NCBI GenBank assembly: GCA_001574975.1
Contig: KQ965761.1
Coordinates: forward strand, 9,785 to 73,784
Direction of reading: 5' to 3'
DNA length: 64,000 nucleotides
Source: Gonapodya prolifera JEL478
Taxonomy: Eukaryota; Monoblepharomycota; Monoblepharidomycetes; Monoblepharidales; Gonapodyaceae
The position numbers and the translations under genes were made by a program. Numbering within the stretch: the first letter of the stretch is position 1; each line of letters begins with the position of its first letter. Below the pieces are notes generated by a model. That model had not been told where the DNA came from. It was given only the letters and a program-made list of their open reading frames with translations, and made no database searches. Shown one piece after another: positions 10,249 through 12,971 of the stretch.

Positions 10249-12971
10249 ATGGTCACCGATACGAAGCAGCCGAGAGTCGGAATCGGTCAGTGCGCCAGTG
10301 TTCTACTCGAATCGCTCGGTCTCAGTCCGTTTCCTCGTGAATAGTCGGCGCGGGACTTTCGGGCATCTGCTCTTCCCTGTTCTTGCGGGAAAAGCTCGGG
10401 ATCACAAACATTATCGGTGTGGAGCGACATGCAGAGTACGTGACACGAAGCAATTCTCGCAGCACTGCAATGAGCTGAAACGATCGGGGGATTGCACTCG
10501 TTTACAGTTTCGGAGGTGAATCTTGAGTTGTTGGTGTACATTGATTCATAGGAAGATTAGGTTCACGCTGATTTCGATTCGCCCGGACCAAAAGGAACTT
10601 GGTACGGTGAGTAATGGCAACGTTGAAGGTGCGCGGATGCTCATCAACGAGAGCATCACACCGCTTCTCCACATCTATCGCACGTTTCGACACTCCCGTG
10701 AAGAAAACAACTACGTAAGTACCTTGAAATTATTTTTCGCGATACTTGCTCACCTTGAGCTTTGATTTCAACCTAGCCCGGACTTGCTTGTGACGTTCCC
10801 GCCCATATCGTGAGGAGACTCGAAGTTGTCTCAATCAAGTCGAGGTATAACGACATTTTTCGCATTTAGTACAGCTTCTCTTTTGCAATGAATCCGGACT
10901 GGAGGTGAGAAAAACCAATTGTCGAGTTTACGTTCACCAGTCCGGCACCTTCCTGACAATATCGCCTGTCCAAAATATAGTTGCCCGTACCCACCACGAG
11001 ATGGTGAGCACCGTCTTCATGCGACGAACCCTGTGCTCTCTTTCCCAGTAGTCATCACGACTTTATTGTTTCCAGAACTCCTTGCTTACATCCACTCTGT
11101 TGCTCACCGCTTCTCCCTGCAGAAACACTTCCGCTTCCTCGTCAAAACAACGCGCTGTGTCTGGAGCGACGAAAACAACTCGTGGACCGTCTATTACAAA
11201 GACATGTCCAAACTTTCAGGGGAGGCTCCCCTGTTCCCGTCAGACAAGGACCTGGAGGTGCTGGAGGAAGAAAGCTTCGAGTGCGACTTCTTGTTCAACA
11301 CGACGAAGGGAAGCGGGAACCCGGGACTCCCCCTCATTCCAGGCGTGCTTGAGGGCAAGTTCAAGGGTCGATGGTGGCATTCAATGGTGAGTCCATCCCG
11401 CCCACAAGTGTACATTTTGCGCGTTGCTGAGGGTCCTCTTTACTCGCTGGATGATCCGAATAGCTGTGGCCCTCTGACGGACTCGACTACTGTCAGGACA
11501 AACGTGTGGCACTTATTGGCTGCGCCGCTGCTGCTGTTCAACTGGTCCCACAACTTCAAAGGTGCTCGGGGCACCTCACTGTGTTCCATCGTACTCCAAA
11601 CCACGTCATGAGGCGTTATAATACTCCTTACACGGACGAGCAGAAACAAGTCTGGAAGAAGGACCCGTTGGCGCTGAGAGCCTTCAAGACTGCGTTTCAG
11701 CGCGACTTTTCAAAGGGGTGGCAAGAGACGGCGTTTGGGGAAGTGGACGGTGACGTGGCAAAGAGGAGTTTAGAAGAAGCCCGGAGGAACTTGGAAGATA
11801 ATGTGGACGATCCACAGATGAGGGAGTGGCTTTGGCCCGACTGTAAGTTGATAGCCCCCTTTTCTACAACTGTTCGTATTTTAATATCAGGGCTCGATTT
11901 AAAGTTCCACTGTGGTGCCGTCGCGTATGCTTCCACGACGATTTTTACCCAGCTCTGGCAAAACCAAACGTCACGCTGATGCAGGATCGAATCGTGGAGG
12001 TCAATGAGCACGGAGTGGTCACAGCAAGGCAAAACGCGAGAGATAAAGTGTGTTCAACGGACTTGAGCTTCGCAATGTGCTCCAAGTACCATAGCAGTCC
12101 CACGTGTTCAACATTGATGTTTTTAGGTTATCGATCCCACCGCACCCCACACGCCACACAGTTTTGACGTTATCATCTACGCAACTGGCTGGGCAGCACC
12201 CGGAAACAAAGTTCAACCGTTCCCCGTGATCGGTGTCAACGGTTTAGAATATGCGAAGCGCGCGCTGAACCTGTACCCAGCTGGCGGCAAGTTTGGTGTC
12301 CAGAGCTACATGGGACAGATGCTCGACGGGTTCCCAAATTATTTTGCGCCTGCTGGACCGACTGGCCTCGCCCTCTCCGCTCTCATTGTGGCGATGGAGA
12401 CTGGAATATCTTACTGTCTGAAAGTCCTCAAGTACGCAATCGACCACAACCTTGCATCTATTGGGCCGACGTACGATGCTACTCAACGGTGGATCGAAAT
12501 TGCAGATGGCCGGATGAAGGGAAAGCCGTAAGCACGAAAGGGGCACATACTTTCACCGAGTTCTCAACGTCTTCGTAATTTCTAGATACGCACAGGGAGA
12601 CTGTTCAGGTTACCACAAGACCTATCGATCTGACGGCACATGGACGAACCGTGTGCATTTTGCAGGAACGACACATGAACTAATACAACTTCTTGAATAT
12701 CCAGTGTGGAGTGATTTCACGACCAAACCACTGGTGAGTGCAACTATGAGCTGTACTTGACCCAGCGTCTTCTGAAAAGGATACCGAACTTCTCTTCATA
12801 CCATTCTTCTTCTTATAGGACCCACCGGTGCAGTGGCGCCAACCGACGCCACCAGTTCCTTCAATGCTCGACGAGGCTTTCCAAGGCGTCCATGTTGTCT
12901 CCGCCAGGACTGATTCTCAAAATGGGCATCCTGCAGATCACTCTAGCATTGCTGAGATACGCACGCGTTGA
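10249..12971 (+). CDS. Baeyer-Villiger/flavin-containing monooxygenase built from microexons
   Basis: It is predicted to use FAD and NADPH to insert oxygen into a ketone or heteroatom substrate. Fourteen exons: 10249-10285, 10345-10435, 10508-10515, 10595-10606, 10704-10714, 10777-10809, 10870-10904, 10981-11003, 11076-11386, 11464-11842, 11891-12047, 12127-12526, 12587-12733, 12819-12971. Joined they give 598 aa. FAD motif GAGLSG is split by intron 1; [20 protein letters not shown] comes from the microexon run. The Baeyer-Villiger fingerprint FxGxxxHxxxWP is present as FKGRWWHSMLWP across an intron. The second nucleotide-binding motif reads VALIGCAAAAVQL, with Ala replacing a usual Gly. DVIIYATGW is the conserved late ATG motif. 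The substrate is unknown. Three 20-nt tandem repeats lie just downstream. Confidence 0.88.

Follow-up and report, generated by a model that had tools for sequence, protein, structure and literature searches.

The window analysed here is a stretch of 64,000 nucleotides of the genome of Gonapodya prolifera JEL478 (contig KQ965761.1), and positions are numbered from its first letter. The gene with which we are concerned, as rebuilt from the raw sequence, is assembled from 14 exons totalling 1785 nt, that is, 594 codons and a stop codon (Table 1); a preliminary description had its model close at 599 codons, and that figure needs correcting. The rest of its architecture stands: the 14-exon structure and its junctions could be rebuilt from the sequence (exons 1 to 9 fit the junctions given there), and the six consecutive exons of 8-35 nt with GT/AG borders to which it drew attention are found, in frame, at exactly the positions it gave. 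All 13 modelled introns are of the GT/AG type and short (58-97 nt), and the open frame runs through the 14 exons without an internal stop.

Table 1. Exons of the reconstructed gene in window coordinates (C73, C80 and C2a are paralogues in the same genome, discussed in the text; consequences of skipping are computed)
Feature	Position	Strand	Length	Remarks
Exon 1	10249..10285	+	37 nt	Start codon; MVTDTKQPRVGI; C73 and C80 have the next intron at the same position and phase
Exon 2	10345..10435	+	91 nt	From the GAGLSG dinucleotide-binding motif to VERHA
Exon 3	10508..10515	+	8 nt	Microexon, TTTCGGAG; skipping gives a frameshift and a stop at codon 56
Exon 4	10595..10606	+	12 nt	Microexon completing GGTWY; skipping is in frame, with loss of 4 FAD-loop residues
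Exon 5	10704..10714	+	11 nt	Microexon, ENNY; skipping gives a frameshift and a stop at codon 55
Exon 6	10777..10809	+	33 nt	11 residues
Exon 7	10870..10904	+	35 nt	11 residues; the next intron shares position and phase with C2a
Exon 8	10981..11003	+	23 nt	CPYPPRD
Exon 9	11076..11386	+	311 nt
Exon 10	11464..11842	+	379 nt	Exons 9 and 10 together make FKGRWWHSMLWP
Exon 11	11905..12047	+	143 nt
Exon 12	12127..12527	+	401 nt
Exon 13	12586..12733	+	148 nt
Exon 14	12819..12971	+	153 nt	Includes the stop codon; 5' border recovered in 6/6 runs; beyond ~12890, outside the range of the paralogue models used

The predicted product is a Baeyer-Villiger-like, FAD-dependent flavin monooxygenase. It is matched by Pfam NAD_binding_8 (E 6.4e-9) and by the FMO-like family PF00743 (23.7 bits against a curated cut-off of 22), and its best match in the PDB is the cyclohexanone monooxygenase 6era (E 2e-40), all of which bears out the flavin-monooxygenase identity first proposed for it. 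(PF00743 finds no match at E 0.001 in the C73 paralogue. The score against NCBIfam NF045818, pentalenolactone D synthase, is 141.7 bits with a cut-off of 1100, making the window protein a relative of that family and not a member.) The hallmarks of type I Baeyer-Villiger monooxygenases are two GxGxxG Rossmann motifs and the fingerprint FxGxxxHxxxW(P/D). The first Rossmann motif is present in exon 2 as GAGLSG; FKGRWWHSMLWP, which we take to be the Baeyer-Villiger fingerprint, conforms to the consensus and aligns with FEGETIHTAAWP of 6era. The second Rossmann motif is lacking: the window gene, C73, C80 and C2a all have GCAAAA where 6era has GTGSTG, and it is for this reason that the product is called Baeyer-Villiger-"like" rather than a strict member of the class. 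With the cyclohexanone and steroid monooxygenases (PDB 6era, 3gwd, 4ap3) it shares the FAD loop and FxGxxxHxxxWP and can be aligned piecewise over most of its length; it departs from them in the second Rossmann motif (GCAAAA in place of GTGSTG).

Might one instead be looking at a decaying gene copy, its small exons no better than chance fits to a degraded frame? Decay does happen in this monooxygenase family, as is evident from L022 (C96:16200-20500), where the first exons of the C73 paralogue recur in a copy that is cut short and broken in frame. A frame that stays open for 594 codons over 14 exons, the presence of the family motifs and GT/AG borders at 13 of 13 introns speak against applying that explanation to the window gene, and its probability is close to negligible.

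The part of the gene that invites attention is the run formed by exons 3 to 8 (8, 12, 11, 33, 35 and 23 nt), each of which is flanked by AG and GT and which, joined in frame, specify 48 residues. If "microexon" is taken to mean a coding exon that is internal, canonically bordered and no longer than about 30 nt, then those of 8, 12, 11 and 23 nt are predicted microexons; the short stretches of the run read TTTCGGAG, GAACTTGGTACG and AAAACAACTAC. The consequences of failing to remove the introns can also be computed: retention of 12 of the 13 introns generates a premature stop, the exception being intron 8 (11004-11075), which is open in frame and whose retention would insert 24 extra residues. 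This same intron falls within an open reading frame (10919-11611) delimited mechanically.

How secure are exons as small as these? They were evaluated with a spliced aligner based on dynamic programming and written for this analysis. A profile of three paralogues returned identical exons at six of six intron penalties, and all six full-length runs, made with three paralogue proteins, gave back the complete set of 13 introns. When the entire segment 10436-11075 was shuffled, the real score of 229.8 was reached in none of 300 trials (shuffle mean 39.5, sd 13.5); when single stretches were shuffled against the same profile, with crude splice scoring, the 8-nt exon was equalled in 2 of 300 trials and the 11-, 12-, 35- and 23-nt exons in none of 300 each. 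Because the three paralogue models had been built with the window protein as query, the test was repeated with bacterial and distant sequences. A profile of two bacterial cyclohexanone monooxygenases and the distant paralogues L026 (uninterrupted in this region), L024 and L030 placed the same exons in 18/18 settings. (A qualification attaches to this result: the models of L024 and L030 were first made from window or C73 queries, and C73 had itself been modelled from the window protein, so that circularity is lowered but not removed by the distant profile; the sole members it does not touch are the bacterial sequences and the uninterrupted L026 exon.) There is also a counter-result: a profile of the bacterial sequences and L026 lacking the N-terminal part chose, in 5/5 settings, a 37-nt alternative start exon.

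With crude splice scores, and with the splice-site ends kept, the 8-nt exon was matched by 13/1000 and 72/1000 shuffles (at two intron penalties) and the 11-nt exon by 0/1000, twice. Donor and acceptor matrices were constructed from 47 introns with a median length of 65 (window introns 2-4 and the uncertain introns of C73, C80 and C2a were kept out of this training set). Alignments using these matrices returned the same exons in 6/6; shuffling equalled the 8-nt stretch in 1/500 trials with the family profile and 0/500 with the distant profile, and the 12-nt exon, the 11-nt exon and all three jointly in 0/500, twice in each case. The pattern AG-N-TTY-GGN-G-GT has its single occurrence in the window at the 8-nt exon, although it was composed post hoc, with exon and paralogues already known, and shuffles of the whole window contain it 0.32 times on average and at least once in 25/100. 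The acceptor of intron 3 is weak (1.8 half-bits, the mean being 11.3), and the branch-point motif YTRAY is not enriched (14/40 introns, with a shuffle mean of 14.8). The 8-nt exon is the least secure of the microexons.

What would the gene look like without it? The best solution that forgoes the 8-nt exon uses a single 46-nt exon, 10561-10606 (VHADFDSPGPKGTWY), giving GVHADFDSPGPKGTWY by way of a very poor donor. Read as a rival gene structure, it leaves the 8- and 12-nt exons unused and connects the 46-nt exon to exon 2 via a donor at 10419 or 10440. This exon is open and in frame, it preserves 10 residues of the stretch, and its 3' part is what the profile lacking the N-terminal part selected in 5/5 settings. 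The letters HADF also recur in this region of intron 3, as a 13-nt local match, but 96/1000 shuffles contain an equal match and the recurrence was discarded as a signal. The costs of the alternative are considerable: 1) it drops the paired glycine and, if the donor at 10419 is used, the acidic residue that precedes it; 2) its score is lower by 24 and 20 half-bits at two penalties; 3) the matrices give -9.9 half-bits to the donor at 10419 and -1.3 to the acceptor at 10560; 4) it entails an intron of 121-142 nt in a gene whose others measure 58-97 nt. The 46-nt exon is thus a very improbable substitute, and the proposition that the GGTWY..YPG stretch requires the small exons has held up, the deficit of 24 and 20 half-bits being that of the best solution free of the 8-nt exon.

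A search of the genome (47.56 Mb in 207 contigs) permits the gene to be set beside its relatives. The close paralogues among the matches listed are C73, C80, C2a (on C2, at ~980-983 kb) and the truncated copy at C96; these are the best-scoring candidates, so that their number is at least the one given; a match at C17:483707-483832 forms no part of the comparison. Small exons are not peculiar to the window gene: C2a carries one of 11 nt, and C73 and C80 each carry exons of 18, 14 and 6 nt. C73 and C80 have the very same 6-nt exon, CATGAG (L021 1497-1502; L020 reverse complement 1648-1653), which has introns on both sides and completes the WHSMRWP fingerprint. Local similarity within the six pairs of flanking introns of C73 and C80 was reached by 4, 19, 25, 68, 146 and 160 of 200 shuffles; the intron before the CATGAG exon therefore keeps some likeness between the two genes and the others little or none.

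The correspondence varies from intron to intron when positions are compared (the position table leaves out those end exons of C73, C80 and C2a that forced alignment placed with gaps or as tiny fragments). In position and phase, introns 1, 11 and 12 of the window gene agree with both C73 and C80, and intron 7 agrees with C2a. Intron 2 is displaced by 1 nt from a paralogue intron, introns 4 and 5 by 3 nt each. For introns 3, 6, 8, 9, 10 and 13, the models of C73, C80 and C2a offer no exact counterpart. The distant paralogue L030, as modelled with the uninterrupted L026 as query, does have an intron that agrees in codon and phase with intron 3, which separates the 8- and 12-nt exons.

A more general proposition is that, in this fungus, flavin-monooxygenase genes have a hot spot for gaining introns at the FAD loop GGTW..YPG, where introns crowd together and have left serial microexons behind, in C2a possibly two of a single nucleotide. 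As it stands this is rather unlikely. Over 12 genes, GGTW..YPG holds 12 distinct intron positions in 45 nt, compared with 15 in 174 nt; for a region picked post hoc, the value of 0.056 after scan correction is not significant, and the hot spot was rejected as a finding. The two consecutive 1-nt exons of C2a (G and T, at 347 and 405 of the L023 reverse complement) have likewise not been established: the aligner prefers them at penalties 6, 8, 10 and 12, shuffles equal their score in 21/600 and 147/600 trials, and a rival arrangement with a weak donor between GTWY and NTYPG wins at penalty 14. These putative exons belong to a cluster of introns situated between GGTW and F (L023 is C2:979000-983000; reverse complement 248-474), and their donors are consensus-like. 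Among the distant flavin-monooxygenase paralogues, small exons are seen within GTW..YPG in L030 (C8:388700-392700; 16 nt, at 916-931) and in L025 (20 nt, reverse complement 887-906).

Introns packed within a few nucleotides of one another, as they are chiefly in C2a, also bring to mind nested introns of the stwintron type and copies of mobile introns (introners). For the window gene the probability that some of its introns are of either kind is very small. Introns 3 and 4 (the 2 of 13 that were tested) matched only themselves in the 47.6-Mb genome, and for lack of other copies of these two an introner origin was set aside. Among the window introns, the two most alike score 20.0; in shuffles the best pair averages 20.4. 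Inspection by eye of the 13 modelled introns disclosed no stwintron: none of them splits the donor or acceptor of another.

The exon layout, the fit to the protein family and the intron positions shared or nearly shared with paralogues were computed here. The interpretation that we favor is that the locus is, very probably, a functional fungal gene, rich in introns, whose product is a Baeyer-Villiger-like monooxygenase and whose FAD-loop stretch has been split into constitutive microexons by the gain of introns and by shifts of position. The gain of introns (probably this, rather than loss), combined with small shifts in their positions, would have fragmented the coding sequence of the loop. 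The introns being uniformly short (58-97 nt), each is probably recognized as a unit across its own length, that is, by intron definition, and the introns would be removed in turn. Exon length would then be left nearly unconstrained, down to 8 nt, and no exon-bound factor would be necessary. The predicted splicing of the transcript is probably what the model depicts.

Should the microexons rather be thought of as a regulated switch, inclusion yielding active enzyme and skipping yielding a frameshifted transcript destined for degradation? Skipping the 8- or the 11-nt exon would indeed shift the frame (to stops at codons 56 and 55, respectively), and skipping the 12-nt exon would delete part of the FAD loop in frame. 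There are precedents as well: a microexon that acts as a switch is described for Trichoderma virens Xlr2 in PMC11121469, and alternative splicing is reported for the fungal Baeyer-Villiger enzyme MoxY. A switch is nonetheless improbable. Paralogues preserve the same protein with exons cut in different ways, and this fits constitutive use, which remains the probable condition of the exons in the window gene.

Is such a gene "exceptional for a fungus", as the preliminary description asserted of three exons in a row under 13 nt? That assertion is weak, for the paralogues have exons of 6, 11, 14 and 18 nt and exons of 1, 5, 6 and 8 nt have been published for fungi; exons of the size seen here are already known in fungi. 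The following reports bear comparison: 1) An RNA-supported 1-nt exon occurs in Fusarium CYP621A P450 genes (PMC12940212). Like the exons of the window gene, it completes a conserved motif and was overlooked by automatic annotation; it differs in being a single exon and in being confirmed by RNA reads, the window exons being predicted from genomic sequence. 2) In Phanerochaete chrysosporium CYP5141A1, an 8-nt microexon lies in the conserved I-helix motif (PMC12940212). Here too the product is a fungal monooxygenase and an 8-nt exon falls within one of its highly conserved motifs, but the enzyme family is another one, and one such exon is cited where the window gene has three of 12 nt or less consecutively. 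3) The bglA genes of basidiomycetous yeasts have cDNA-based minimum exons of 5 and 6 bp, and in Rhodotorula minuta 10 exons are shorter than 30 bp (PMC9142197); the combination of many short introns with several microexons recalls the window gene, in a different gene. 4) The P450 genes of P. chrysosporium, nearly one third of which have microexons, the shortest exon being 6 bp (PMC1184071), resemble the window gene in their small introns, in exons from 6 bp upward and in belonging to a monooxygenase family. They are mostly predicted models, however, and come from a basidiomycete, whereas the Gonapodya genome looks zoosporic.

The feature that remains unusual is that three successive exons do not exceed 12 nt. 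A narrow search of titles and abstract openings, which is not proof of absence, found no fungal run of this kind, nor did the title or abstract opening of any report so found announce a microexon in a chytrid; the consecutive microexons that did turn up are those of RPS24 in cancer. Research on fungal microexons is described as limited in PMC11121469. Judged at the level of sequence, the predicted gene is well supported, and one can think of it as ordinary in kind and unusual in degree.

It offers a testable case of predicted, probably constitutive microexons within a cofactor-binding motif in an apparently zoosporic fungus, the fungal examples compared here being basidiomycetes and ascomycetes. 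Gene models that overlook such exons lose the FAD site. If confirmed at the RNA level, the run of 8, 12 and 11 nt would be informative about the removal of short introns around exons too small for exon-bound factors.

A few observations concern the genome and the surroundings of the gene. The genome contains 72 exon-level matches to Fungal_trans, a fungal family, and 8 to an axonemal radial-spoke family, 6 of them at one site on C3 (C3:397485-399696) with E values down to 8.7e-15; together these matches would fit a flagellated, zoosporic fungus. DUF6534, a mushroom marker, had no match, a negative of little weight since that search gave no signal anywhere. Upstream of the gene, the translation of window positions 9400-9865 has a presumable resemblance to a proteinase inhibitor I9 or subtilisin propeptide. 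An open reading frame at 19739-20203 (-) presumably resembles a fragment of a Copia-type integrase. Just past the stop codon, at 13030-13089, a 20-nt unit resembling AGGCAGTTCTTACTTCATAA is repeated head to tail, with three copies discernible by eye.
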